Shown here in pieces: positions 49,998 to 64,000 of a stretch of DNA of 64,000 nt. Both the position numbers and the translations under genes were made by a program. The notes beneath the pieces were generated by a model that saw only the letters and a program-made list of their open reading frames with translations, was not told where the DNA came from and did no database searches. Within the stretch, counting starts at the first letter, position 1; each line of letters opens with the position of its first letter. The stretch is from Flammeovirga kamogawensis. Lineage in GTDB: Bacteria; Bacteroidota; Bacteroidia; Cytophagales; Flammeovirgaceae. The stretch lies in assembly GCF_018736065.1 (NCBI RefSeq), contig NZ_CP076128.1:372001-436000 (forward strand). Direction: 5' to 3'.

Positions 49998-52694
49998 TTA
50001 ACGTCCTATTAATGAAAATGATGACCAATAATATGGACTTGTGTATAAACCTTCTTTGATTAATCTAATTTTAGCTTTTTGTAAAGCCATTGGCAAGTTG
50101 TATTCTATGGTTAACTCTTTGTAAAAATATTGCATTAGAAGTGCTGTAGATATATCATCTACGGTCCATAAAGAAACAATAGTATTGTCTACACCTGCAT
50201 ATTTTAAAGACCTTGATAAGCCTATAAGACCTTCTCCTTTTGTGAGTTTCCCTAAACCAGTTTCACAAGCAGAAAGAGTAACAAGATCGGCATTGAATTC
50301 CAAATTGTAAATTTCAGAAGCATATAGTAATCCCTCAGATTTGTTCTCATTCACTAAATAAATAAATGACTGATTAGGGTGTTCTTCATCAACTAAGCCG
50401 TGAGTAGCGAAGTGTAGATGAGTGTAGTCTTTTATTTTTTCAGATTTAAGAATAGATTTTTTTGCTTTATCATATAAATATGCTGACGAAAGCCAATTTT
50501 TCTCTTTAAACACTTTATCAATTTCTCTTACTTCTGATAAAGTTCCATCTAACTGATTAAAATTATCAGTACCTGTAGAATCTCTAAAAAATATAGGAGC
50601 AAAACATGCAATATTCATTGTTTCGTTTTTATCAATAGACTTGGTGTTTAAAGCTAATGTAGACGAATAGTTATATGAAATTGCGTATTTCTTTGTTAAA
50701 AAAGGGTAGTCTACAGGCTTTAACATCTCATCTCCAACAACTTCAGTAAATAGAACATCCATTGGTATATTATTAATTCTACCATCAAGTAAGAAAATTA
50801 GATGATTGATTTTATTTGGCAAGATGAAAGGGAATAAAATATCAGAAAGATATTTAGAAGACATGAAAACAATTTCATCAAAATTAAATTTTAAACCTGT
50901 TTCTAGACTAATAATTTCATCTTGTAATTCTTGGGTAAATTCTTCTTTGTAGATTTTTAAATTAGAAGAAGTAGCAACAAAAATATATAATTTTTCATCT
51001 TTTTCTGAAATGAAATAGCTAATAATTGCTTCATTTTCAGTTAGTTTTTCTTTTACATCTTTATAGCTAAAAGATGTATGATTGTATTTTAAATCAAAGT
51101 AATTAGGGTATTCATTTTCTAATAATTTGATGTGGTTCTCAAGTTCTTTCTCCTTCTCAAATAGCTTACTTTCCAAGATATCTCTCTCTTCAATTTTATC
51201 ACTTTTAATAAGTGCTTGTTCTATAGAATGAATTTCTTCTTGAATATGCTCTTCTTTAACAATCAATTTATCTGGAATGCCTGCAAAAGATTTGGCATTT
51301 GTTTCTTGAATAGCTTCTAATAAGGATGCAGATTTACTCCATTCTACAAATTGGAAGGCATTTTCAATCCATATTTGTGATGAAATAGATGCTTCAGAAA
51401 GTGCTATACATATCTGAATACCATCAGAATATACATCATTCGTAATTGCACTTAATTGAATTTTATCTTCTTTATTTTTTTGTCCAGCTCTAACATTTTC
51501 TATAATATTATGTGCTAAATAGAGGCTGTTGTACCCACAAATAAGATCTTGCCTTTTTAGCGTTTTTTGGTAGTGCCTCTTTTTTAGCGCGAATGCTTTT
51601 TTCTGTAAAGCAACAATATTAGTGAAGGGGTTTAGGTAGTTATTAACCTCTGGTGTAGCATAGATATTAGAGTCATTAAAATCTTTATTATTAGCAATTA
51701 GTGCTTTCTGATAAAAATCTATTGCCTTTTGAGTTTCACCAGTTTTAAAAGCGATCTCACCTAATTTAATATAAATATTTGCTATTTCTGGGTGTTTTTC
51801 GCCAAAAACATTTTGGTATTGTGTAAGAGCAAAATCATAGAATTCATTCGCTAAATCTCCTTGGTTCTTTTTTAAATAAGCTTCAGCGATATAGGTATAA
51901 GCAAAAGCTACATTAGGGTGGTCTCCACCATACGTTTTTTCCCAAATAGAGGCTGCTTTTTCAAATGAGGATATTGCTTTGTCTGTAAAATAATTTTTCT
52001 CGAAAGTAATACCTAGATTAATATAAATAGAAGCAATAGCTGGATGATTCTCAGTAGGATATACTTTAATGTATTCTTCTAGTGCCTTTTCGTAATAATA
52101 TTGAGCTTTGTAAGTGTCTGTTTTGCTGTATAATAAACCTAAGTTGATGTTACAATTAGCAATGTCAATATCATCATTTATTTTATTGCTTATGTTGAGT
52201 GCTTCTTTTCCATAATCAATTGCATCTTCTTGTGCTCCAAGTTGCCAATTAGAAATAGCAATTAAAGATAGGGTTTCAATAGAAATTTTTGATTTATACA
52301 ATGATTTTTCAGATGCTTCCGTAATTTTAAATGCATCATTTAAATAATTTAAGGCTGCAGTAGGATACCCTTGTTGTTGTGCTAGATATCCTTTCGTATT
52401 TAATATTTCAGCGTAGCTTAACAGTGAATTATCAAGACTATTTTTATTTAAATATTCGTTGGCTTTAGTGTATAGACCTTTTTGGCCATATACCTTTCCA
52501 ATTAATGCTGAACTTTTATTTAAAATATTTTTATCGTCAATATTCTGTATCAAAAATACTAACTGTTTTTCTGCAATATCTAATTCTCCAAATTCATATG
52601 CAGTCTCAGCACTATCGAAGGAGACGTTTTGAGCGTTACTATATAAAGAGAAGAAGAAATAAAGTAATACTATTGTGATATAGTTTTTATACAT
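49998..52694 (-). CDS. secreted TPR-CHAT domain protein
   Basis: 898 residues. A signal peptide (VLLYFFFSLYSNAQ) is followed by roughly eight to ten TPR-like helices between about 25 and 370, for example YINLGITFEKNYFTDKAISSFEKA and YIKLGEIAFKTGETQKAIDFYQKA. A coiled coil lies near 460-530. The C-terminal CHAT peptidase-like domain has the His in LHFATHGLVDEEHP and the Cys in LVTLSACETGLGKLTKGEGL, so both catalytic residues appear intact. It starts 10 nt after the barrel gene and shares its strand. CHAT domains are caspase-like; an exported one may process envelope proteins. The substrate is unknown. Confidence 0.88.
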   Translation of the reverse strand: MYKNYITIVLLYFFFSLYSNAQNVSFDSAETAYEFGELDIAEKQLVFLIQNIDDKNILNKSSALIGKVYGQKGLYTKANEYLNKNSLDNSLLSYAEILNTKGYLAQQQGYPTAALNYLNDAFKITEASEKSLYKSKISIETLSLIAISNWQLGAQEDAIDYGKEALNISNKINDDIDIANCNINLGLLYSKTDTYKAQYYYEKALEEYIKVYPTENHPAIASIYINLGITFEKNYFTDKAISSFEKAASIWEKTYGGDHPNVAFAYTYIAEAYLKKNQGDLANEFYDFALTQYQNVFGEKHPEIANIYIKLGEIAFKTGETQKAIDFYQKALIANNKDFNDSNIYATPEVNNYLNPFTNIVALQKKAFALKKRHYQKTLKRQDLICGYNSLYLAHNIIENVRAGQKNKEDKIQLSAITNDVYSDGIQICIALSEASISSQIWIENAFQFVEWSKSASLLEAIQETNAKSFAGIPDKLIVKEEHIQEEIHSIEQALIKSDKIEERDILESKLFEKEKELENHIKLLENEYPNYFDLKYNHTSFSYKDVKEKLTENEAIISYFISEKDEKLYIFVATSSNLKIYKEEFTQELQDEIISLETGLKFNFDEIVFMSSKYLSDILFPFILPNKINHLIFLLDGRINNIPMDVLFTEVVGDEMLKPVDYPFLTKKYAISYNYSSTLALNTKSIDKNETMNIACFAPIFFRDSTGTDNFNQLDGTLSEVREIDKVFKEKNWLSSAYLYDKAKKSILKSEKIKDYTHLHFATHGLVDEEHPNQSFIYLVNENKSEGLLYASEIYNLEFNADLVTLSACETGLGKLTKGEGLIGLSRSLKYAGVDNTIVSLWTVDDISTALLMQYFYKELTIEYNLPMALQKAKIRLIKEGLYTSPYYWSSFSLIGR

Positions 52695-52704
52695 AGTAGT
52701 GTCT

Positions 52705-53649
52705 CTAGAATTGGTGTTTAATAATTAGGTTAACAACATAGTCCCTAGCTAATCCATCAGGATTAAAGGCTCGTTGTTTGGCTGCATATGCCGCAATTGC
52801 TGATAATGATAAGTGCGGAGAAAAATTGTATGACCCTTCTAGAATTGAGTTTATAACTAAACCTTGAGATCCTTCTAGTAAATAGTCTCCATTTTCAAGG
52901 CTTTCAATATATGTTCTATCGTGTTTGTAAATAGCTAAAACACTTGGTGCAAAAGACCATTTAGAAGTTCGTAGGGTGTATTTGATTCTCCCAGATACAT
53001 CGTATTTTCGATCAAGATGTCTTGATGAGGTATACCATTTTTTCATTAACTCATAGTTGGGCTCATTTTTATAATATTCAGGATCATACTCATGGTTTTC
53101 AAGAGTTGTTAGAGGTTGCTGAATACCAAAAGAAAGGTGCCAAGCTTTAGAATTGAGGGCAATACCAAAAAGTCCATCATAAGTACCAAGAGAAGGTTCA
53201 TAAAACATAGGTATGGGTTTTCCCTCAAAAGTAGATGAAGCATCTGAAGTAGGTATTTTTGTGCCAAATACAGCAGATAGATTCCAATTGTCCCATTGTT
53301 TTACCAAATAAGAATAAGAAAGTGTAATATCACTTATTCCTTGAGTAGTTGTTAAAGGTCCTTCTCTAAAAGCATATAATGATTTAAGTTGTAAAGAACT
53401 TCTACTATTAATTTTATAATCTACACTAAAGCCAATTCCATAATCAAAAGCTTTCTCTTTATAGTTTTGCCAATAGGTTTGATAGCTCAAAGTGAATTTA
53501 TTATCAACTTTATTGAATTTTAATCGATCTGAATCTGGATTTAAAGCTCCAGTAGTACAAATACCTGCATCACTACATCCTTGTGCATGAATGAAACTAT
53601 TTGAAGAAGTAATTAAAAAAAGCAGTATTAGTAGTTTTTTTACTGTCAT
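52705..53649 (-). CDS. outer-membrane beta-barrel protein in the CHAT operon
   Basis: 314 residues from the ATG at 53649. This start gives a good signal peptide (VKKLLILLFLITSSNSFIHAQ); a longer reading frame upstream is unlikely because it overlaps the divergent gene's start. The mature part begins with CSDAGIC, a possible disulphide, and continues as alternating beta strands ending in LIIKHQF with the C-terminal Phe of a barrel. Large aromatic-rich strands (FKVDYKIN, WNLSAVFGTKIP) suggest about 12-14 strands. I recognise no named family. It is co-transcribed with the CHAT gene. Confidence 0.72.
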   Translation of the reverse strand: MTVKKLLILLFLITSSNSFIHAQGCSDAGICTTGALNPDSDRLKFNKVDNKFTLSYQTYWQNYKEKAFDYGIGFSVDYKINSRSSLQLKSLYAFREGPLTTTQGISDITLSYSYLVKQWDNWNLSAVFGTKIPTSDASSTFEGKPIPMFYEPSLGTYDGLFGIALNSKAWHLSFGIQQPLTTLENHEYDPEYYKNEPNYELMKKWYTSSRHLDRKYDVSGRIKYTLRTSKWSFAPSVLAIYKHDRTYIESLENGDYLLEGSQGLVINSILEGSYNFSPHLSLSAIAAYAAKQRAFNPDGLARDYVVNLIIKHQF

Positions 53650-53743
53650 AAATAAAAAAGATTCTAAAGAATAGATTGATTTGAAGAATGAGTTAGTATT
53701 TTCGATTTTTAAACTAACAAAAATCGACCACAATTTTATAAGC

Positions 53744-55594
53744 ATGTGCAAATTCCTTAAAAGAATTACCTTTTTATTTATATTGATCCATTTTTTCACT
53801 AGTGTGAATGCTCAACATAAGGTATACCCTAAATACTTTGATGCATCAAAGGAAGACCTTGTTTGGGTTGATTCTGTTTGGAATTCTCTATCTGATAACG
53901 AAAAAATTGCTCAATTATTTGTTGTTCCATTTTATTCTCCAAAAAGTTACAACGAAGTAAGTATGTTAGTCAGAAAATATAACGTTGGAGGAGTAATCTT
54001 TTTTAAGGGTAGAGCAGAAGACCAAGTAAATGCAATAAATAGATTAAATGGAATTGCTAAAACACCATTAATATATACTTTAGATGCAGAATGGGGCTTA
54101 GGTATGAGATTGCCAAAAGATGGCATATCTTACCCATATGCAATGACATTAGGAGCGATTGAAAATGACGAGTTAATATATAGAATGACTGAACAAATTT
54201 CTACTCAGTTAAAAAGAGTTGGAGTTAAAGTTAGCTATGGACCAGTTGCAGATTTAAATAATAATCCTCTTAACCCAGTTATTAATTATCGTTCTTTTGG
54301 AGAAAATAAGGAAAGGGTAGCAAAAAAGTCGATTCAGTATATGAGAGGGCTTCAAGATAATAATGTTGTTGCTGTAGCCAAACATTTTCCTGGTCATGGT
54401 GATACAAATATTGATTCTCATAAAGATCTACCAATAATACCTCATTCAGTAAAAAGGTTAGATTCATTAGAACTATATCCTTTTTCAAAATTAATAGAAG
54501 CAGGGGTAGGTGGAGTAATGTCGGCACATTTACAAGTACCCGTTTGGGACGATAAAACCTCCTCTTTATCGCATAAAATTATACAAGAAGTATTAAGAGA
54601 CTCATTGGGTTTTAATGGACTTATTTTTACTGATGGTATCTTGATGGATGCAGTAACAAAGCAATACAAAGGGTATGGAAAAGCTGATGCACAGGCATTA
54701 GTAGCAGGTAATGATGTAATTGAATTTACAAATCATATTGATAAAGCTATAAAAGAAGTGAAAATTCAGATTAATAAAGGAAACTTAACTTGGCATCAGA
54801 TAGATGAAAAAGGTTACCGTATGTTATTAATGAAAAGATGGGTTGGTGCTCATAAGCAAGAAATGTTATCAATATCTCATCTAAACGAAGATTTACATCC
54901 ACTAGAAGCAAACCAATTGATTCAAGAAATTTCTGATGAAGCTGTAACTGTATTAGAGAATAAAAAACAAATTTTACCGTTGAGTGTAAATAGTGGCAAA
55001 ATTGCAATTGTAAATATAGGAGCAAATTATAAAGAAATGTCGAAAGACTTTCGTTCTAAAGGACTAGATGTTTCTAATTTTTTCTTGTCGAAATATGCGA
55101 CTGAAAGTGAGGTTGTTCAATTTACAAAAACATTACAGAAGTACGATGTTATTGTAACACAAGTAGGTGGGCTTTACATGAGTCAGAAAGTAAAAGATAT
55201 TGCTGTTGAACTAACAAATCATAAACCAACGGCAACCATGAAATTCCCCTATGGTATTACTTATTCAACGCTAAAGTATTTTGATATCACAAATAAGTGG
55301 CAGAATCAAATCGTAGTCTTTTTAGGGAATGCTTATACTTTAAGAACCTTTAAAGGAATTGAAAATAGTTCAGGTTTACTTCTTACTTATCAGAATAATC
55401 AAGCATTAAGAAAAGCTGTTTCAAAAGTAATTTTAGGAGAAATACAACCCAAAGGGACATTGCCTGTGACTATTGATAAAAGATTTAAAGAAGGATTAGG
55501 CTTAAAATCTTTTGATGATCATCATGTTAAAAGAGTAAATTCTGAAGAGTTAAACGTACAAGAAGTACCAAAAATTAATAAACAAAATGATTAA
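53744..55594 (+). CDS. GH3 beta-N-acetylhexosaminidase (NagZ-like)
   Basis: 616 residues from the ATG at 53744, which has a proper signal peptide (ITFLFILIHFFTSVNAQ). The GH3 catalytic domain has LDAEWGLGMRL, the NagZ-defining KHFPGHGDT with its catalytic His at about 213-221, and the nucleophile Asp in FTDGILMDAV at about 297. A GH3 C-terminal domain follows. The beta-lactamase domain sometimes fused in Bacteroidota homologues is absent. It should release GlcNAc from peptidoglycan fragments in the periplasm. Its stop overlaps the NamZ-like start by 8 bp. Confidence 0.9.
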   Translation: MCKFLKRITFLFILIHFFTSVNAQHKVYPKYFDASKEDLVWVDSVWNSLSDNEKIAQLFVVPFYSPKSYNEVSMLVRKYNVGGVIFFKGRAEDQVNAINRLNGIAKTPLIYTLDAEWGLGMRLPKDGISYPYAMTLGAIENDELIYRMTEQISTQLKRVGVKVSYGPVADLNNNPLNPVINYRSFGENKERVAKKSIQYMRGLQDNNVVAVAKHFPGHGDTNIDSHKDLPIIPHSVKRLDSLELYPFSKLIEAGVGGVMSAHLQVPVWDDKTSSLSHKIIQEVLRDSLGFNGLIFTDGILMDAVTKQYKGYGKADAQALVAGNDVIEFTNHIDKAIKEVKIQINKGNLTWHQIDEKGYRMLLMKRWVGAHKQEMLSISHLNEDLHPLEANQLIQEISDEAVTVLENKKQILPLSVNSGKIAIVNIGANYKEMSKDFRSKGLDVSNFFLSKYATESEVVQFTKTLQKYDVIVTQVGGLYMSQKVKDIAVELTNHKPTATMKFPYGITYSTLKYFDITNKWQNQIVVFLGNAYTLRTFKGIENSSGLLLTYQNNQALRKAVSKVILGEIQPKGTLPVTIDKRFKEGLGLKSFDDHHVKRVNSEELNVQEVPKINKQND

Positions 55595-56783
55595 AACTAT
55601 AATGCTTTGTATTGCGTGGACATTACTATCATGTACATTAACTGATAAACCCAAAAAGAGTAAGGAATTACCAGAAAGTGCACCAAAAGAAATAATTGTT
55701 GGAGCGGCTCAAACAGAAGCTTATTTGACTTTATTGAAAGATAAAAAAGTGGGTGTACTTGTTAATCAAACATCAACAATAGGCTCTACATATTTGGTTG
55801 ACTCTCTTGTAAATCTAGGTGTAAATATAAAAATGATTTTTGCTCCCGAACATGGTTTTAGAGGTAAGGCAGATGCAGGTGCGCATGTTAAAGATGGTTT
55901 TGATGAAAAAACGGGGATAAAGATCTATTCGATATATGGTAAGAATAAGCGCCCATCTCCAGAGTTATTAAATCAAGTAGATGTTGTGCTATTTGATATT
56001 CAGGATGTTGGTTGTCGTTTTTATACTTACATAAGTTCTATGCACTACATGATGGAAGCCTGTGCAGAGGCAAATAAAAAGCTCATAATCTTAGATAGAC
56101 CAAACCCTAACGGGATGTATATTGATGGACCAGTTTTAAAAAAAGAATTTTCTTCTTTTGTTGGTATGCATGCTATACCAATTCTTCATGGTTTAACAGT
56201 AGGAGAACTCGCTCATATGATTAATGGTGAAAAATGGTTAAGAAACGGAAATGTTTGCGATATAGAAGTGGTAAAAGTAGAGAATTATAACCATAAAATG
56301 ACCTATAGCTTACCTATCAAGCCATCTCCAAATTTGCCTAATGACCAATCGATTAAACTATACCCATCTTTATGCTTTTTTGAAGCAACTCCAGTTAGTA
56401 TTGGTAGAGGAACAGATTTCCCATTCCAAGTAATTGGGTACCCTAACAAAAATTTTGGAGAGTTTACTTTTACTCCTCGATCAATTGAAGGGGCTGCTAC
56501 TAATCCTGTTTTAAAAGGAAAATTATGTTATGGTGAAGATTTAAGAACAGAAGAAGAAGGAGGATTACAGTTAAATTATATTGTTGAGTGGTACAATTTA
56601 TATAAAAAATTTGAAGGTAAATCTGTAATAACAAAAAAGAAGTGGATGGATTTATTATCGGGTACAGATGCTTTACGTTTAGCAATTGAAGAAGGACAAA
56701 CTGAAGATCAGATTAAAAAATCTTGGGAATTAGAGCTTCAAAAGTATAAAGAAATGAGAGCAAAATACCTTATTTACGATTGA
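55587..56783 (+). CDS. namZ: NamZ-like exo-beta-N-acetylmuramidase (DUF1343)
   Basis: 398 residues with a lipoprotein signal (WTLLSC, Cys16). The DUF1343/GH171 pattern is clear: VGVLVNQTSTIG, FAPEHGFRGKADAG, VVLFDIQDVGCRFYTYISSM, DRPNPNGMYIDGPV and ATPVSIGRGTDFPFQVIGYP. NamZ of Bacillus subtilis is an exo-N-acetylmuramidase that works with NagZ. The 8-bp overlap with a GH3 gene supports the same pairing here: NagZ removes GlcNAc and NamZ removes MurNAc from the same chain end. Confidence 0.93.
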   Translation: MIKTIMLCIAWTLLSCTLTDKPKKSKELPESAPKEIIVGAAQTEAYLTLLKDKKVGVLVNQTSTIGSTYLVDSLVNLGVNIKMIFAPEHGFRGKADAGAHVKDGFDEKTGIKIYSIYGKNKRPSPELLNQVDVVLFDIQDVGCRFYTYISSMHYMMEACAEANKKLIILDRPNPNGMYIDGPVLKKEFSSFVGMHAIPILHGLTVGELAHMINGEKWLRNGNVCDIEVVKVENYNHKMTYSLPIKPSPNLPNDQSIKLYPSLCFFEATPVSIGRGTDFPFQVIGYPNKNFGEFTFTPRSIEGAATNPVLKGKLCYGEDLRTEEEGGLQLNYIVEWYNLYKKFEGKSVITKKKWMDLLSGTDALRLAIEEGQTEDQIKKSWELELQKYKEMRAKYLIYD

Positions 56784-56899
56784 TATTTGTTGAAATGTTA
56801 GATTTAATCAAACAACTGATTTATATTTAAGTGAGCTATTGTTATGGCCAACTATGACTCTCTTATATTATTGCTAAACATATTACTAACTTTTTTACT

Positions 56900-58126
56900 A
56901 TGAATAATGTTGATATGGATCTTAGACTCCAAAAAGACCCGTTAGCAGATGAAACAATACGACTAATTATTGAAGAAGAAGGGATTGACAGAGTGAATCA
57001 GATCCTTGTAGAATTAATTAGTAGCAAAGAAATTCCCGAAATAAAGAACATTTCTTTACAAAACTATTTCATGGAGTCTCAAAAATTCATTCACGACTTA
57101 GATGAAGACCTTATAAAACAAGGACAAGATTTTTTTGAGAAACATGGCCCAGGTTTATCTGCTATGCTATTATGTAAATCATTACCTGCAACTTATGCTT
57201 GTGCTAATGGTGCAGAAGTGGTGTATAGAACAGGGCAGTTTATGGCATCAAAAAACCAAGGGTTAGCTCCATTTACTAAGAGGTTAATGGAAACGGCACA
57301 GTTTGTAATTAATGTAATGTCGGAGGGTGGTTTAAATAAATCCTCAAAAGGAATTATCAGTGCCCAAAAAGTGCGTTTAATGCATGCTGCAATACGTTAC
57401 TATTTACAGAAGAATCATAAAAAAGGGCACCATCATCATGTTTGGGATACGGAGAAATTAGGAGAACCAATTAATCAAGAAGATATGTTGGGAACCCTCC
57501 TTTCATTTTCAGTTTTTCCAATTCAAGGTTTAGAAAAATTGGGAGTAACCGTATCACCTCAAGAGAAAAAAGCTTACTTATATACATGGACTGTTGTTGG
57601 TAAGATTTTAGGTGTTCATCCTGATATAATCCCTGCTACATTTGAAGAAGGAGAAATATTAGGTCAGAAGATCTTAGATGAACAAAAAGCCCCTTCAGAA
57701 GCTGGACATAAACTTACTGAAGCTTGTGTGGAATTTTTAAAAGCTGTAATACCAGGCGAAGAATTTGATGGTTTCCCAGAAGCCTTTATGAGATTTTTAT
57801 TAGGAGATGACCTAGCTGATATTGTAGGATTAGATAAACATAGCTCTACAAAATCAACTTTAGTGATAAAAGCAGTGTGTAAAGTATTTCAAATTGCAGA
57901 TCATCAAAAAGATGAATCAAAACTTATTTGTGCTATATCGGAAAGATTTAATATGCTTATTCTCCAAGGTGTACTTAATTATTTCTATAAAGGACAATCT
58001 GTTGAATTTACAATACCACCATCTTTAAGAAAGAAATGGAAAATTGATAATCAACCTACTTGGAAAGAGATCATATCATCTCCGTCACTTTTTAACTTCA
58101 GACTTAGCTTACAAAAACATAACTAA
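56900..58126 (+). CDS. MpaB/latex-clearing (DUF2236) family oxygenase
   Basis: 408 residues, mostly helical, no signal peptide. It matches the family of fungal MpaB and bacterial rubber oxygenases: SLPATYACANGAEVVYRTGQF near residue 95, the haem-region RLMHAAIRYYL (His162), NQEDMLGTLLSFS near 192 and a Trp-rich helix YTWTVVGKILGVHPD. A run of four His at 177-180 is probably incidental. MpaB cleaves a polyprenyl chain and Lcp cleaves polyisoprene; the substrate here is unknown. It lies 14 nt before a putative terpene cyclase, with which it is surely co-transcribed. Confidence 0.82.
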   Translation: MNNVDMDLRLQKDPLADETIRLIIEEEGIDRVNQILVELISSKEIPEIKNISLQNYFMESQKFIHDLDEDLIKQGQDFFEKHGPGLSAMLLCKSLPATYACANGAEVVYRTGQFMASKNQGLAPFTKRLMETAQFVINVMSEGGLNKSSKGIISAQKVRLMHAAIRYYLQKNHKKGHHHHVWDTEKLGEPINQEDMLGTLLSFSVFPIQGLEKLGVTVSPQEKKAYLYTWTVVGKILGVHPDIIPATFEEGEILGQKILDEQKAPSEAGHKLTEACVEFLKAVIPGEEFDGFPEAFMRFLLGDDLADIVGLDKHSSTKSTLVIKAVCKVFQIADHQKDESKLICAISERFNMLILQGVLNYFYKGQSVEFTIPPSLRKKWKIDNQPTWKEIISSPSLFNFRLSLQKHN

Positions 58127-58140
58127 AAACTATTCAGAAA

Positions 58141-58860
58141 ATGGACTTTATTAAGGAATATATTAATCTTTCAGACTATACAGTTACACAGCAAGTTTTA
58201 TTTTTTCTAGATGCAATATTTTGGGCAGTAACTTACATTCTAGTTATTTATAACGCTATTAAATACAAATTTTTTGGTATTCCAATAGAAGCAGCTGTAG
58301 CAAATGTTGCTTGGGAATTACTATTCAGTACTGTGTTTACAACTAATTTAGGAGTACTCTTTGTATGGGGTATTCGCTTATGGTTAATTACAGATGCTGT
58401 TATGCTTTTTTACCTTCATAAATATGGTAGAAAACAAGTTAGAGTTCCTTTTATCTTTAAGAATTTTAATTGGGTAACAAGTGTAGGTTTTGTATTGTGG
58501 GGACTTGTAATATATGGTTTTGTAATGCAATACGGCGACCCAATTGGTGCAGGTACAGGGTATATATTGAATATTATCATGTCTACATTATTTATCTTTT
58601 TAATACTTGCTCATCCAGAAGAAAAAGCATTAAGTTTTTCGATTGCAATGTGGAAAGGTTTCGGGACTGTATTTGTAGGCGTTGGGATTTTCTTAGGAGA
58701 AGAATCTTCTCAGTTTGTTGTGATTATAGCTGCTATTACTTTTGCTCTTGATATGTTTTATGGTTGGTTAACCTTAAATAAGGAAAAGATTATAGAATGG
58801 AAAAAAGAAGAGATTAAAAGTAAGGTAAAAATCGAAGTTGAAGAAGAAGTAGGAGTATGA
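58141..58860 (+). CDS. putative transmembrane terpene cyclase (Pyr4/PaxB-like)
   Basis: 239 residues with seven predicted membrane helices (about 19-40, 49-70, 72-93, 110-131, 138-158, 164-185 and 190-212) and a charged C-terminal tail. The helix-2 text NVAWEL has Glu59, helix 3 has RLWLITD and helix 7 has ALDMFYGW with Asp204. In Pyr4-type fungal cyclases a Glu in an NxAWE segment and an Asp in the last helix are the catalytic acids (E63 and D218 in Pyr4). The size and topology match. I inferred this from memory of the family, with no alignment. A bacterial protein of the same shape but another function is possible. Confidence 0.5.
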   Translation: MDFIKEYINLSDYTVTQQVLFFLDAIFWAVTYILVIYNAIKYKFFGIPIEAAVANVAWELLFSTVFTTNLGVLFVWGIRLWLITDAVMLFYLHKYGRKQVRVPFIFKNFNWVTSVGFVLWGLVIYGFVMQYGDPIGAGTGYILNIIMSTLFIFLILAHPEEKALSFSIAMWKGFGTVFVGVGIFLGEESSQFVVIIAAITFALDMFYGWLTLNKEKIIEWKKEEIKSKVKIEVEEEVGV

Positions 58861-60950
58861 GAAATACATTGAATTATTCAATTTACTTAATTATTATTTT
58901 CCTTTTTATTTCATTTGAGAGGGTTGAGGATTCTATAGCTAAAAATAATGATACACCATTGTATAGTTATAGTAATTTCTTGATTTATGAATCAGAAGAA
59001 GATCATTTAATAGATGTTGTACAGCATACTTCATCTTTCGAACTATACTCTTTTAATAAAGTAAAACCTGGAAGATCACAATATTGGATAAAATTTGATG
59101 TAGAAAAATATTCAGCTGATCCTTTACAACTTCAATTGGTTTACAGTCGATTTGATCATTTAGAACTTTACAGGTCATTCGATAATAAGACTTTTGAGAA
59201 GGTTGGAGAAGGAGGGATTCTATTTGATAATGATTTAAAGAAAAAGATTTATAGAGGGTATTCTTATTTTCCTATCTCATTAGGTGATAAAAATATTGCT
59301 CATTACTATTTGAAATGTAATAATGATGATAAACCATTTTTTGAATTTCAAGCAGTACCAAAAGATCTTGTCTTAGAAGAAACTGCCAAAATAGATCAGA
59401 AAATCGATTCTTTAGATTTAATTCTCTATTTATTTATAGGTGCAGTTTCTTTAATGATTCTCTATAACTTTTGTCTTTACTTTATGGTGAAAGATAAAGG
59501 GTATATCTATTATGCTTTGCATGCTTCAGCAGTGTTAATTTTTAATTATTGTTTCTCAGGTAAAATTATTTTTCACTTAGAGAATGCAGAATATTTTCAA
59601 CAAATAATTCATTGGTCAGGATTTACTGCTGCTGCATTATTTTTGATTTTTGGGCAGTATATTTTAAATGTTAGGAGCAAGTACAGTAATTTATATACAA
59701 TTTTAAATATTGTGATTGTTGGACTAATGATCTTAAATGTTTTCGTTTACTTTGAATGGTATTTTGTTGTTACCCCTCTAGGGACAGTTCTAATAAATGC
59801 AACATATTTACCTTTGATTTACATAGCTAAAAGAGAAAAATCATTTAGTATAACAGCAAAGTTCTTTTATTATGGAATTCTTATAAATTTTGTATTTATA
59901 ACATTACACATCTTTCAAACTTTTGATCTACTTCCTGTACTTTTTGGGTACAAAAATGTATCGGCTTTGCTGATAGGTTCTGGTTTAGAACAAATGATAT
60001 TTTCTTTAAGTTTAGGTGCTAAAATTACAGATTCTCAAGCAAAAGTGAGAAAGTTAATGATGGAGCAAAATGTAATGCTAGAGAATGAAGTATCAAAAAG
60101 AACTAAGGATTTATTAGAAGCTAAAGAAGAGGTGGAAATACAAAATGAGACTTTGTCAGAGATGAATTCTCGTTTAGGTAAACAGCATGATAATATTAAA
60201 TCAAGTATTAATTATGCAAAGAAAATTCAAGATGCTTCATTACCTACAATAAAGAATATCGGAAAATACGTCAATGATTTTTCAGTATTACATATCCCAC
60301 GAGATACGGTTTCTGGAGATTTTTATTGGTTTAAACAAGTCCGTAATAAAACTATTGTTATTGTTGGTGATTGTACTGGTCATGGGGTTCCAGGTGCTTT
60401 AATGAGTATTCTAGCTATTCAGAAGATTGAAACGATTGTTTCTACTTTAGAAGATATTAAGCCCTCCGTTATATTAGAACAGTTAGATCAAGAGATAAGG
60501 TACGCCTTAAATCAAAAATCATCTCATTTGAATGATGGTATGGATGCTGTGGTCTGTGTAATTGATGATCAGAAAAAAGAAATAGAATATGCAGGAGCAA
60601 AAAATCCTCTTGTTATTATTCAAGAAGATGAAATGAAAGTATTCAAAGGATCAAGAAACTCTATAGGAGGGAATCTTAACTTTTTAGAAGACCCGTTTAA
60701 AGATCAGACGATTTCATATAAAGAATGTCCAATTACTATGTATATGTATTCTGATGGGTATCAAGATCAATTTGGTGCTAATGGTAAGAAATTTATGCCC
60801 AAACGATTTAAGAAATTATTACTAGATATTTCGAAATACAATCATATCCAACAAGAAAAGATATTATACAGCGAATTGAATAAATGGACTAATAATGGAA
60901 AGATTGAGCAGATTGACGATATTTTAGTTTTTGGAATGAGTTTGGAATAA
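58857..60950 (+). CDS. 7TMR-DISM sensor with SpoIIE-type PP2C phosphatase
   Basis: 697 residues. A signal-like N-terminal helix is followed by a periplasmic 7TMR-DISMED2-like beta domain (about 35-165), seven transmembrane helices (about 185-400), a coiled coil (MLENEVSKRTKDLLEAKEEVEIQ) and a SpoIIE/PP2C domain (about 470-695) with TVSGDFYWF, VGDCTGHGVPGALMS and NDGMDAVVC. It should sense an extracellular ligand and dephosphorylate a protein, probably an anti-sigma antagonist. Its ATG overlaps the preceding stop (ATGA), so it is translationally coupled to the cyclase-like gene. Confidence 0.9.
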   Translation: MRNTLNYSIYLIIIFLFISFERVEDSIAKNNDTPLYSYSNFLIYESEEDHLIDVVQHTSSFELYSFNKVKPGRSQYWIKFDVEKYSADPLQLQLVYSRFDHLELYRSFDNKTFEKVGEGGILFDNDLKKKIYRGYSYFPISLGDKNIAHYYLKCNNDDKPFFEFQAVPKDLVLEETAKIDQKIDSLDLILYLFIGAVSLMILYNFCLYFMVKDKGYIYYALHASAVLIFNYCFSGKIIFHLENAEYFQQIIHWSGFTAAALFLIFGQYILNVRSKYSNLYTILNIVIVGLMILNVFVYFEWYFVVTPLGTVLINATYLPLIYIAKREKSFSITAKFFYYGILINFVFITLHIFQTFDLLPVLFGYKNVSALLIGSGLEQMIFSLSLGAKITDSQAKVRKLMMEQNVMLENEVSKRTKDLLEAKEEVEIQNETLSEMNSRLGKQHDNIKSSINYAKKIQDASLPTIKNIGKYVNDFSVLHIPRDTVSGDFYWFKQVRNKTIVIVGDCTGHGVPGALMSILAIQKIETIVSTLEDIKPSVILEQLDQEIRYALNQKSSHLNDGMDAVVCVIDDQKKEIEYAGAKNPLVIIQEDEMKVFKGSRNSIGGNLNFLEDPFKDQTISYKECPITMYMYSDGYQDQFGANGKKFMPKRFKKLLLDISKYNHIQQEKILYSELNKWTNNGKIEQIDDILVFGMSLE

Positions 60951-61110
60951 TTTTTTTCATTGAAAAATCTTATTTTAACCTTTTTTTAGTCCGTATTAAA
61001 ATAAGACAATTTATTTGATTGTTGTTAACAAAAAAGGATAGATCTATTTTTATGATGACCGTATAATTTACCATACAAAGAAAATTATAACATTATAAAA
61101 ATACATCATC

Positions 61111-61809
61111 ATGAATTATACAGCAGAAATTCAAGGCATGTGTCCATTGGCTCAAATGGGGGGTAATGCACATAGAAATGCACCAATTCCAGTCGAAGGT
61201 AGAATGGTTCACGCAAAAGACGTTTACGATATTTCTGGTTTATCTCATGGTGTTGGAACTTGTGCTCCTCAGCAAGGGGCATCTAAGTTAACTATAAATG
61301 TTAAAAATGGAATTATAGAAGAAGCATTAATTGAAACAGTAGGATGTTCAGGAATGACGCATTCAGCTGCGATGGCATCAGAAATTTTGCCAGGAAAAAC
61401 AATTATGGAAGCTTTAAATACTGACCTTGTTTGTGATGCTATTAATGTAGCAATGAAAGAAATTTTCTCGCAATTTGTTTATGGTAGAACACAATCTGCA
61501 TTTTCAGAAGATGGATTACCAATAGGAGCGGGTCTTGAAGATTTAGGTAAAGGATTAAGAAGCCAAGTTGGTACTACTTATGGTACTAGAGCTAAAGGTG
61601 TAAGATATTTAGAAGTAGCTGAGGGTTATGTTACAAGATTAGCTATTGATGAAAATGATGAAGTGATCGGGTATGAATTTGTTCACTTAGGTAAAATGAT
61701 GGAAATGGTCCAAAAAGGATTAGATGCTAATGAAGCTATGGAAAAAGCGAAAGGCAATTATGGACGTTTTGATGAGGCAGAAAGGTACATCGATCCACGT
61801 CACCAATAA
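61111..61809 (+). CDS. IscU-like iron-sulphur scaffold protein (GGGtGRT partner)
   Basis: 232 residues. The middle region resembles IscU/NifU-N: GVGTCAPQQGASKLTINVKNGIIEEALIETVGCSGMTHSAAMASEILPGKTIMEAL. Cys51, Cys79 and Cys108 fall roughly where IscU has its three cluster ligands. The C-terminal half (from about residue 125) is specific to this family and contains GTTYGTRAKGVRYLEVAEGYV. The gene precedes a GGGtGRT protein gene by 47 nt. The pairing recurs in Clostridia and Bacteroidota as far as I recall. Cluster binding is not proven. Confidence 0.78.
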   Translation: MNYTAEIQGMCPLAQMGGNAHRNAPIPVEGRMVHAKDVYDISGLSHGVGTCAPQQGASKLTINVKNGIIEEALIETVGCSGMTHSAAMASEILPGKTIMEALNTDLVCDAINVAMKEIFSQFVYGRTQSAFSEDGLPIGAGLEDLGKGLRSQVGTTYGTRAKGVRYLEVAEGYVTRLAIDENDEVIGYEFVHLGKMMEMVQKGLDANEAMEKAKGNYGRFDEAERYIDPRHQ

Positions 61810-61832
61810 AAATTCCATTATCAAAAATATTT

Positions 61833-61840
61833 TACCACAT
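61833..61840 (+). promoter_or_regulatory. TACCACAT leader motif before the GGGtGRT gene
   Basis: Same core as in the hutH and hutU leaders, 16 nt before the ATG at 61857, again without a Shine-Dalgarno site. Confidence 0.3.
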
Positions 61841-61856
61841 TAAAAAAATTACAATC

Positions 61857-62867
61857 ATGGCTTTATTTGAAGGATACGAAAGAAGAATAGACAAAATTGA
61901 AGAAGTTCTTAAAGAATATAATTTTGAGTCTTTAGAAGCAGCAAGAAAATATGTTGAAGAGCATGGTGTTGATGTTTACAATATTGTTACTGAAACTCAA
62001 CCTATTGCTTTTGAAAATGCAAAATGGGCTTATATATTGGGTGCTGCAATAGCAATTAGAAAGGGCTTAACTAAAGCTACTGATATTGCGGCTGTTTTAG
62101 GTGAAGGTATTCAAGCTTTTTGTATACCAGGGTCTGTTGCAGACCAAAGAAAAGTAGGAATTGGACATGGTAATCTTGCAGCAAGATTATTACATGAAGA
62201 AACAAACTGTTTTGCATTCTTAGCAGGACATGAATCTTTTGCTGCTGCAGAAGGAGCAATTAAAATTGCATTATCTGCAAATAAAGTAAGAACAAACCCT
62301 CTAAGAGTTATTTTAAATGGTTTAGGAAAAGATGCAGCTTATTTAATCTCAAGAATTAATGGTTTTACGTATGTGAAAACTCAATATGATTACCAAACAG
62401 GAGATTTAAATATTGTAGAAGAACGTCGTTTTTCTAAAGGACCAAGAGGAACAGTTAAATGTTATGGTGCAGATGATGTACGTGAAGGTGTATCAATTAT
62501 GCATTTAGAAGATGTTGATGTTTCTATTACTGGTAATTCAACAAACCCTACTCGTTTTCAACATCCTGTAGCTGGTACATATAAAAAAGAGAGATTAGAA
62601 GAGGGTAAAAAGTACTTCTCTGTAGCATCTGGCGGAGGTACAGGGCGTACTCTTCACCCAGACAATGTTGGAGCAGGACCTGCTTCTTACGGAATGACAG
62701 ATACAATGGGTAGAATGCACTCGGATGCACAATTTGCTGGTTCATCTTCTGTTCCTGCACACGTAGAAATGATGGGACTTATTGGTATGGGTAATAATCC
62801 AATGGTTGGAGCATCTGTTGCAGTAGCTGTAGCTTTACAAGAAGCCTTATCAGCTGAATTAGTTTAG
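61857..62867 (+). CDS. GGGtGRT family protein
   Basis: 336 residues. The name-giving motif ASGGGTGRTLHPD lies near residue 260, followed by GPASYGMTDTMGRMHSDAQFAGSSSVPAHVEMMGLIGMGNNPMVGASVAVAVALQ in the family's conserved end. A long N-terminal helical domain comes first (YERRIDKIEEVLKEYNF). The function is unknown; no catalytic motif of a known enzyme is visible, but the Gly-rich and His/Ser-rich segments suggest a binding site. It follows an IscU-like gene, so an iron-sulphur link is possible. Confidence 0.88.
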   Translation: MALFEGYERRIDKIEEVLKEYNFESLEAARKYVEEHGVDVYNIVTETQPIAFENAKWAYILGAAIAIRKGLTKATDIAAVLGEGIQAFCIPGSVADQRKVGIGHGNLAARLLHEETNCFAFLAGHESFAAAEGAIKIALSANKVRTNPLRVILNGLGKDAAYLISRINGFTYVKTQYDYQTGDLNIVEERRFSKGPRGTVKCYGADDVREGVSIMHLEDVDVSITGNSTNPTRFQHPVAGTYKKERLEEGKKYFSVASGGGTGRTLHPDNVGAGPASYGMTDTMGRMHSDAQFAGSSSVPAHVEMMGLIGMGNNPMVGASVAVAVALQEALSAELV

Positions 62868-62889
62868 TTGATTATCATATAGTTTAACA

Positions 62890-62928
62890 AAAAAGCCACT
62901 TTTAACATTGAGTTAAGAGTGGCTTTTT
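62890..62928. terminator. bidirectional terminator after the GGGtGRT gene
   Basis: AAAAAGCCACTTTTAAC pairs with GTTAAGAGTGGCTTTTT (one mismatch), with A and T tracts on either side. It sits between convergent genes and can serve both. Confidence 0.9.
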
Positions 62929-62932
62929 AATT

Positions 62933-63631
62933 TTATAATGTTCTATAGAAAGCGAATATTTCTTCTAAATCACTTTTATTTTTTGTTTTGAGTTTGTTTG
63001 ATTTCGCAAACTTATGTACTTCAGATTTTTTATCACCAAAAATAGAATAGAACTCTTTTTCTTTAGTAGATATCTCTTTTAATTTCCCATCAGAAAGAAG
63101 GAATAATTGAGGTTTTTTCCATGCGAATTCATCTTTTGCTTCAGAGTAAGAGTTACTAGCGCTGTCATCTTTTTTATTGAACTTTTTCTTTCTTACTTTA
63201 TAAAGGTGAAACTTATCGTCTGTGAATATTACCTCAGCATATTGTTTTTTATTTTCAATTTTTATTTGTTCAAAAAGTAACTCACCTTCTTCATCACTTT
63301 TCCAACCAAAAGAACGTACTTCTTTTTTGTTAACAACTATTATATTTTTTTCGTCTTTCATAGACCAAAGTTCATCAGAATAGGCATTAAACTTAATGAG
63401 TACATTCTGAAAACTACTTCCATCAATTAAAGTGACATGTCCCACTTCCCATTCGTTTGTATAAAATGGTGTTCCTTTAAATGTTTGAGCTTTTTTACCA
63501 TACAAAAGGTCAACATTTTGTTGATTAGGGTCTACTAATTCGTATAAATTTGTATTTGTTGTAATTTGAGCTGTTGCTATTTTAGGTGCTGTAAGAAGAA
63601 CAGCAAACGTTAAAATATAAAGAGATTTCAT
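62933..63631 (-). CDS. secreted hypothetical protein
   Basis: 232 residues with a signal peptide (YILTFAVLLTAPKIATAQ). The mature part is mostly beta: FKGTPFYTNEWEVGHVTLIDGSSFQNVLIKFNAYSDELW resembles the proteins of Bacteroidota that carry such a VTLIDG..F..V.. strand pair. The C-terminal third is lysine-rich and helical with KKSEVHKFAKSNKLK. No known motif was found. It is probably periplasmic or surface-attached. It is 48 nt downstream of the partial membrane protein gene on the same strand. Confidence 0.65.
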   Translation of the reverse strand: MKSLYILTFAVLLTAPKIATAQITTNTNLYELVDPNQQNVDLLYGKKAQTFKGTPFYTNEWEVGHVTLIDGSSFQNVLIKFNAYSDELWSMKDEKNIIVVNKKEVRSFGWKSDEEGELLFEQIKIENKKQYAEVIFTDDKFHLYKVRKKKFNKKDDSASNSYSEAKDEFAWKKPQLFLLSDGKLKEISTKEKEFYSIFGDKKSEVHKFAKSNKLKTKNKSDLEEIFAFYRTL

Positions 63632-63679
63632 TAGTTATATGTTTTAATTATTGGGATAATAATAGCTCAATTTAAAAAA

Positions 63680-64000
63680 TTATTCTTCATTTCTTAACTC
63701 TTCCATTTCTGAAATTAATTCTTCTAATTTTTTAAATTGAGATTTATAAACTAAATCCATATCTATTTTATATAGTTTTTTAGCTGATAAAGAGATAATT
63801 ATAGCACCAATACCTACAAATAGCATCCCTTTTATTGGTAAACCCATAAATAATTCAGAGGCATCAAAATTAGCTATAACTTCTTGTTTAAAAATAGTTT
63901 CCCAAACAATAATTGTAGATAGAATGAATATCAGAGGGTACATAAATCTATAAATATTGGTGTAGCCTTTAATAGTGTTTTTTAGCCATTCATCAAACTG
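63680..64000 (-). CDS. membrane protein, N-terminus beyond the window
   Basis: At least 106 residues. From the first Met (63943) it has two hydrophobic helices (about 3-18 and 35-50) and a charged C-terminal helix (LEELISEMEELRNEE). The reading frame stays open from that Met to the window edge: QFDEWLKNTIKGYTNIYRF precedes it. The true start is thus upstream, and the protein probably has a cytoplasmic N-terminal part. The family was not recognised. Confidence 0.6.
   Translation of the reverse strand, partial: QFDEWLKNTIKGYTNIYRFMYPLIFILSTIIVWETIFKQEVIANFDASELFMGLPIKGMLFVGIGAIIISLSAKKLYKIDMDLVYKSQFKKLEELISEMEELRNEE

Follow-up and report, generated by a model that had tools for sequence, protein, structure and literature searches.

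The subject of this analysis is a group of three adjacent genes in a 64,000-nucleotide (nt) stretch of the Flammeovirga kamogawensis genome (contig NZ_CP076128.1, positions 372,001 to 436,000; the whole stretch is called the window in the following), encoding an MpaB-type oxygenase-family protein, a Pyr4-like seven-transmembrane (7-TM) protein and a receptor with an output domain. The genomic data suggest an undescribed signalling system and not a natural-product pathway. We give a probability of roughly 0.5 to the reading that the MpaB, Pyr4-like and receptor genes form a three-gene signalling module making or presenting an isoprenoid-type ligand to the adjacent receptor. A sequence-only reading of the window had proposed an isoprenoid cassette of two genes. 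The family assignments of this proposal held, whereas its composition as a pair did not, as the third member is a signal receptor/output gene. The proposed cyclisation and cutting of an isoprenoid may occur, but because the group is larger than the pair and includes such a gene, a reading other than a biosynthetic cassette is to be preferred.

Linkage of the MpaB pair to signalling genes

The neighbourhoods of 80 MpaB loci were surveyed, the best 80 of 513 relatives from a contig scan for which seven aligned pair-linked MpaB proteins served as query; this sample is biased toward the window's MpaB, and many of its loci are metagenome-assembled genomes (MAGs). A Pyr4-like or DUF6989 gene lying downstream in the same gene run was taken as partner, with a 400-nt, four-gene rule for the main count. 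Signalling neighbours were counted among same-strand downstream genes only, and a few contigs end shortly after MpaB (e.g., L044). Open reading frames (ORFs) were called mechanically with a longest-ORF choice, which is unreliable at loci rich in guanine and cytosine, and signalling domains in the locus surveys (the 80 loci and Myxococcota) were called by small models built from Pfam-annotated proteins. A partner gene is present at 49 of the 80 loci. It was found that a signalling gene follows in the run at 41 of these 49 loci and at none of the 31 loci lacking a partner (Fisher p 4e-15, kinship uncorrected), while 42 of 490 control ORFs (at least 150 amino acids (aa), elsewhere in the same loci) are signalling genes. 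Under a 250-nt gap rule a signalling gene lies downstream at 24 of 30 loci with a Pyr4-like partner, at 15 of 17 with DUF6989 and at 2 of 33 without partner; both of the latter (L084, L104) carry a Pyr4-like gene farther along and fall into the partner class under the 400-nt rule. The spacing is operon-like, with a median of 5 nt from MpaB to the partner (45/45 within 50 nt) and of 8.5 nt from the partner to the signalling gene (34/38 within 50 nt). Of the eight partner loci scored as lacking a downstream signalling gene, L035 and L039 are cut by the contig end, and at L097 and L112 the neighbouring gene is convergent and encodes a kinase-AAA or cyclase-AAA protein.

Adjacency of MpaB and a partner was found at loci from Bacteroidota, Acidobacteriota, Spirochaetota, Myxococcota, Chloroflexota and Actinomycetota, several of them MAGs. 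The pairing thus goes beyond chance, being repeated both in relatives and in other phyla. Among 395 Bacteroidota genomes, 24 contain the Pyr4-like family, at one locus each, and MpaB is adjacent at five (the window, L025, L030, L032 and L034). A scan of Myxococcota, the phylum of Hyalangium, with the Pyr4 family gave 13 places, and leaving out L116 (the seed genome) 12 loci (L125-L136) with wide flanks. MpaB lies directly beside the Pyr4-like gene in seven of them, and at L132 a cyclase-AAA gene is placed between divergent MpaB and Pyr4-like genes; six of these eight loci have an adjacent cyclase-AAA or kinase-AAA gene by our own models, upstream in four of the six. For Actinomycetota (the phylum of Streptomyces albospinus), 8 of 296 genomes match the Pyr4 family, six of them over the cut-off, and MpaB is found at one locus (L142). 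Moreover, 30 PF09995 loci with 1.5-kb flanks from 58 relatives include four with a Pyr4-like partner, and histidine kinases flank two of the remaining 26 (L163, L168).

The outputs joined to the pair are diverse. Pfam identifies histidine kinases downstream at L037 and L087, a 7TMR-DISM histidine kinase at L068, a SpoIIE protein at L030, an AAA protein at L036, and Ser/Thr kinase-AAA-GAF proteins ending in a histidine kinase (L040, L062), SpoIIE (L075) or an adenylate cyclase (L102). A membrane adenylate cyclase is called at L065 by our own model, and L031, a Pyr4-like gene without adjacent MpaB, is accompanied by another membrane adenylate cyclase (Pfam). At L062:6956-8842 a natural MpaB-DUF6989 fusion precedes the Ser/Thr kinase-AAA-GAF-histidine kinase gene. 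Placed on an MpaB tree of 119 rows, built without duplicate loci, the ten output classes need 11 changes or more, with 9 as the smallest possible number; the outputs are thus diverse, yet for the most part grouped by MpaB clade.

The strongest single result is that the Pyr4-like protein varies together with the receptor type at 14 related loci, a hand-chosen set from one MpaB clade. Nine come from Algoriphagus, Emticicia or Jiulongibacter and the rest from Catalimonadaceae, Saprospiraceae and unclassified Bacteroidetes records. Two receptor types occur here, i.e., a six-transmembrane (6-TM) receptor domain with a kinase or cyclase, and 7TMR-DISM with a kinase. In the 33 pairs of different type the Pyr4-like proteins share 27-32% identity at an MpaB identity of 41-72%, whereas the 53 same-type pairs with an MpaB identity of at most 72% share at least 66.5% (mean 75.6%); over all same-type pairs of the 14 loci the range is 66.5-98%. 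For example, A. chordae and A. antarcticus compared with A. formosus, A. vanfongensis and A. marincola show 70-72% identity in MpaB and 30-32% in the Pyr4-like protein. Across the 30 loci at which both proteins are present and the receptor could be classified, the same-type excess in Pyr4 identity is 19.8 points after removal of the MpaB trend, a value reached in 0 of 5000 shuffles with kinship uncorrected. The 6-TM receptor type forms one clade in the Pyr4 tree (200/200 bootstrap trees) compared with three changes on the MpaB tree. Hence, at least in the 14-locus clade, a change of receptor is accompanied by a change of the Pyr4-like gene, with MpaB retained. Such a pattern would be expected of a Pyr4-like protein that determines the signal perceived by the receptor, whether by carrying out the final step of ligand formation or by serving as a subunit of the receptor.

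The three proteins and their surroundings

The first two ORFs lie 14 nt apart on the forward strand, as the sequence-only reading had stated, and Pfam profile searches support the families it had named. The product of the first gene matches MPAB_Lcp_cat (PF09995) with an E value of 6e-19 and 69.4 bits (curated cut-off 23), and it matches the LcpK30 rubber oxygenase chain 5o1m with 2e-17 in phmmer and with 2.1e-33 when a 7-row profile is used. R128, T132 and H162 align with the LcpK30 heme residues R164, T168 and H198 (numbering by hand), whose roles are treated in PMC6311187, and the three are invariant across the seven aligned pair-linked MpaB proteins. Genome-wide, PF09995 and PF25129 each have a single match.

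Table 1. Genes of the proposed module and codons of selected residues (positions within the window).
Feature	Positions	Strand	Length	Basis or remark
MpaB/Lcp (DUF2236) heme-oxygenase-family protein	56900..58126	+	408 aa	Pfam, phmmer
Codon of His162, predicted proximal heme ligand	57383..57385	+		alignment to 5o1m
Pyr4-like 7-TM protein	58141..58860	+	239 aa	Pfam PF25129, AlphaFold2
Codon of Glu59 (helix 2, NVAWEL)	58315..58317	+		alignment, AlphaFold2 helices
Codon of Asp85 (helix 3, RLWLITD)	58393..58395	+		alignment; third acid, not among the catalytic acids of the sequence-only reading
Codon of Asp204 (helix 7, ALDMFYGW)	58750..58752	+		alignment
7TMR-DISMED2 + 7TMR-DISM_7TM + SpoIIE (PP2C-type) protein	58857..60950	+	697 aa	Pfam

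The second product matches Pyr4-TMTC (PF25129) with an E value of 7.6e-16 and 58.9 bits (cut-off 27). Its seven helices, previously read from the letters, reappear in the AlphaFold2 model as membrane-length helices (15-42, 49-65, 72-99, 109-131, 137-157, 166-185 and 191-212) followed by a charged C-terminal helix (214-237), with a mean predicted local distance difference test score of 96.1. The predicted fold matches solved chains of the KDEL receptor, cystinosin and SWEET; no Pyr4-family chain was found in a sequence search of the PDB, so this match cannot separate Pyr4 from another 7-TM family. The motifs containing the three acids are present as described earlier, and their conservation was assessed in 82 distinct sequences above 120 bits (84 before identical ones were removed). 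Near-copies occur among the 45 MpaB-linked rows, and the 37 other rows contain L084, L104 and L132 despite MpaB in the same cluster. With this composition, Glu59 is kept in 45/45 MpaB-linked and 32/37 other rows, Asp85 in 45/45 and 35/37, and Asp204 in 39/45 and 34/37. The catalytic acids given for fungal Pyr4 are Glu63 and Asp218, and a literature search for Pyr4 with these residues found no such paper.

The third gene overlaps the Pyr4-like gene by 4 nt and combines an extracellular DISMED2 domain (PF07696, 7e-06), a 7-TM domain (PF07695, 4.7e-20) and a SpoIIE domain (PF07228, 1e-14) in one chain according to Pfam. Within the genus, the pair in G003 (L211) is followed by 7TMR-DISM/SpoIIE as one 671-aa ORF, and in G002 (L005) a close homologue of the third gene begins at the same place and is cut by the locus end. 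In G012 (L210), from another genus of the family, 7TMR-DISM follows the pair and the SpoIIE part is a separate overlapping ORF. Of nine genomes examined in the genus, the three with an MpaB-linked Pyr4-like gene are the only ones to have MpaB; in two more genomes the only Pyr4-like gene is a different one, next to a Rossmann-fold oxidoreductase, and G003 has two further Pyr4-like genes besides the linked one. In other members of the genus, a second kind of Pyr4-like gene overlaps a NAD-binding Rossmann oxidoreductase gene at L007, L008 and L010 (by Pfam for L007, by eye for the others).

A scan of 11 ORFs at 49998-63943, module genes included and three small overlapping ORFs left out, found no prenyltransferase, polyprenyl synthase, cytochrome P450 or flavin monooxygenase; the MpaB gene was not counted as terpenoid biosynthesis. 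Upstream, glycosyl hydrolase family 3 and NamZ exo-muramidase genes (53681-56783) end 116 nt before MpaB, and a NamZ-like gene is also found upstream in G002 and G003 and not directly upstream in L210. Downstream, a NifU_N-like gene is followed by a GGGtGRT-family gene (61111-62867).

Other contexts were noted among the relatives. At L214:2-9482, MpaB and Pyr4-like genes lie among four consecutive SpoIIE-domain genes (own model), and the 6-TM receptor domain of the linked kinases is matched some ten times in each of G326 and G334 (among L181, L182, L197, L198 and L202-L209). Gammaproteobacterial MpaB genes at L042, L058, L067 and L096 have TonB-dependent receptors as neighbours, identified by Pfam at L042 and L096 and by our own model at the other two, with a squalene-hopene-cyclase-family gene present too at L067 and L096; this is a different context and possibly one related to isoprenoids. 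The Pyr4-like gene at L009:62-3527 has a gene of the flavin amine-oxidase family on one side and one for a cytochrome P450 on the other, a context that is likely biosynthetic, and at L004:1423-3510 a thiamine-pyrophosphate (TPP) enzyme gene directly follows the Pyr4-like gene, similar to the situation in the published zigralone cluster with its TPP enzyme.

Proposed mechanism and competing explanations

The genomic data, uncorrected for kinship, show the linkage to signalling genes together with the protein families, conserved residues, recurrence, diverse outputs and the coupling of Pyr4-like and receptor type, whereas catalysis, ligand and output are inferred. In the proposed module, the MpaB-type heme protein would act with oxygen on a membrane isoprenoid such as a quinone tail, a carotenoid or a polyprenyl lipid. 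The Pyr4-like 7-TM protein might cyclise, otherwise process or present the MpaB product via Glu59, Asp85 and Asp204, and the receptor encoded next to it would bind this ligand through its transmembrane or DISM region. SpoIIE-type phosphatases are known in partner-switching circuits, and in the window the SpoIIE domain of the receptor would dephosphorylate a target, probably in such a circuit. In relatives the same front end is combined with other outputs, namely histidine kinases, Ser/Thr kinase-AAA proteins or adenylate cyclases.

Several results weigh against this module. In an independent-pairs test of the partner/signalling association six pairs were available, of which a mean of 3.1 pointed in the same direction and none in the opposite one, giving a median p of 0.25. 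Four partner loci (L041, L052, L077 and L086) have no directly adjacent signalling gene, the same is true for the Myxococcota pairs L130 and L134, and L150, L050 and L060 are close kin of the window's MpaB without a partner. Of the 24 Bacteroidota Pyr4-like loci, 19 lack an adjacent MpaB, 14 of them from one family (f37). Regarding the co-variation, the Ser/Thr-kinase type requires five changes on both trees and thus shows no such pattern, the 30-locus effect is due to the 6-TM type and the 7TMR type, and at MpaB identities under 40% same-type values (34.7 and 37.5) differ little from different-type values (30.9 and 32.6); linked transfer alone could account for the co-inheritance of Pyr4-like gene and receptor without function. 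At the level of residues, Glu131 occupies the place of the distal ligand Lys167 of LcpK30, and Asn replaces Asp204 in 6 of the 45 MpaB-linked rows. Finally, the predicted KDEL-receptor/SWEET-type fold would suit ligand binding as well as catalysis.

The main rival is a product-less sensor pair, in which MpaB would serve as heme sensor for oxygen, nitric oxide or redox state and the Pyr4-like protein as a KDEL-receptor-like membrane receptor subunit binding a lipid or coupling the heme protein to the kinase. We regard this as a serious minority alternative. Against it, Glu59 and Asp85 are invariant in the MpaB-linked rows, the Arg/Thr/His heme triad of active oxygenases is kept, the characterised members of the MpaB/Lcp and Pyr4 families are enzymes, and the match to Insig is weak and without sequence support. 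Rather unlikely is a biosynthetic cassette, in which the pair would make a tailored quinone, carotenoid or meroterpenoid with the signalling gene as regulator or bystander. Membership of both proteins in their Pfam families, other Pyr4-like genes of the same order beside P450, flavin or TPP enzymes (L009, L004) and the published bacterial Pyr4-like cyclases, which make meroterpenoids according to PMC13307353, speak for it. The frequency with which a signalling gene follows the partner and the change of the Pyr4-like protein with the receptor speak against it; the scan of the 11 ORFs, which found no biosynthetic neighbour, and the receptor or kinase as usual companion also make a cassette of purely biosynthetic nature less likely. 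Chance neighbourhood or an operon of convenience without functional link is very improbable: conservation within the genus could be inertia, the upstream NamZ-like gene being kept there too (L158, L162), but the same adjacency is found across six phyla, the gene order differs in Myxococcota and the MpaB-DUF6989 fusion exists.

Relation to known systems and significance

Bacterial Pyr4-like cyclases are already known. PMC13307353 lists 1107 bacterial Pyr4-like candidates and keeps 264 with terpenoid-biosynthesis neighbours, a filter that probably removed the receptor-linked members. Its cyclases XiaH, TylF, GroF and ZigF are compact Pyr4-like membrane proteins like that of the window, which is placed with them by the PF25129 match; the candidates kept in that study have terpenoid-biosynthesis neighbours, whereas the window combines the Pyr4-like gene with MpaB and a signal receptor. 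Lcp and bacterial MpaB-type oxygenases, as described in PMC6311187 and PMC12724181, have PF09995, the Arg/Thr/His heme residues and the 5o1m match in common with the window protein. The latter differs from LcpK30 in the Lys167 to Glu131 exchange and in its linkage to a membrane partner and a receptor.

The literature search covered open-access articles, with long result lists seen only in part, and within this scope no article was found that connects MpaB or Pyr4-like proteins to signalling genes; the receptor-linked system is absent from it, in agreement with the earlier statement that no bacterial operon of such composition is described. As far as their available text goes, PMC11109268 treats fungi, and PMC10882540 and PMC11002830 have no bearing on the question.

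The fungal MpaB and Pyr4/PaxB proteins belong to the same two families by Pfam name. They act in biosynthetic clusters, i.e., in the mycophenolic acid, pyripyropene and paxilline pathways. The third gene of the window matches the domains of 7TMR-DISM receptors, which occur with SpoIIE, histidine kinase or other outputs, and we know of no such receptor described with a dedicated oxygenase and Pyr4-like gene. The comparison with oxysterol sensing by Insig/SCAP is an analogy without sequence support, and the window has a Pyr4-like and not a DUF6989 gene. A wider reading, tentative and more doubtful than the module itself, would be a widespread pathway in which MpaB makes an oxidised-isoprenoid ligand from a membrane isoprenoid, the exchangeable Pyr4-like or Insig-like DUF6989 protein binds or processes it and sets its identity, and matched receptors lead to histidine-kinase, Ser/Thr-kinase, cyclic-nucleotide or PP2C outputs. 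Bacteria would then have an equivalent of oxysterol sensing, and Pyr4-like cyclases a role outside biosynthesis.

If the three-gene module holds true, membrane cyclases characterised in natural-product pathways would have a second role in signal transduction, and orphan receptors such as 7TMR-DISM proteins, 6-TM MASE-like kinases/cyclases and Ser/Thr kinase-AAA proteins would gain a ligand source encoded by their neighbours. The correspondence of Pyr4-like type and receptor type would offer a route toward these ligands. Moreover, for genome mining it would mean that a Pyr4-like gene need not flag a biosynthetic cluster.
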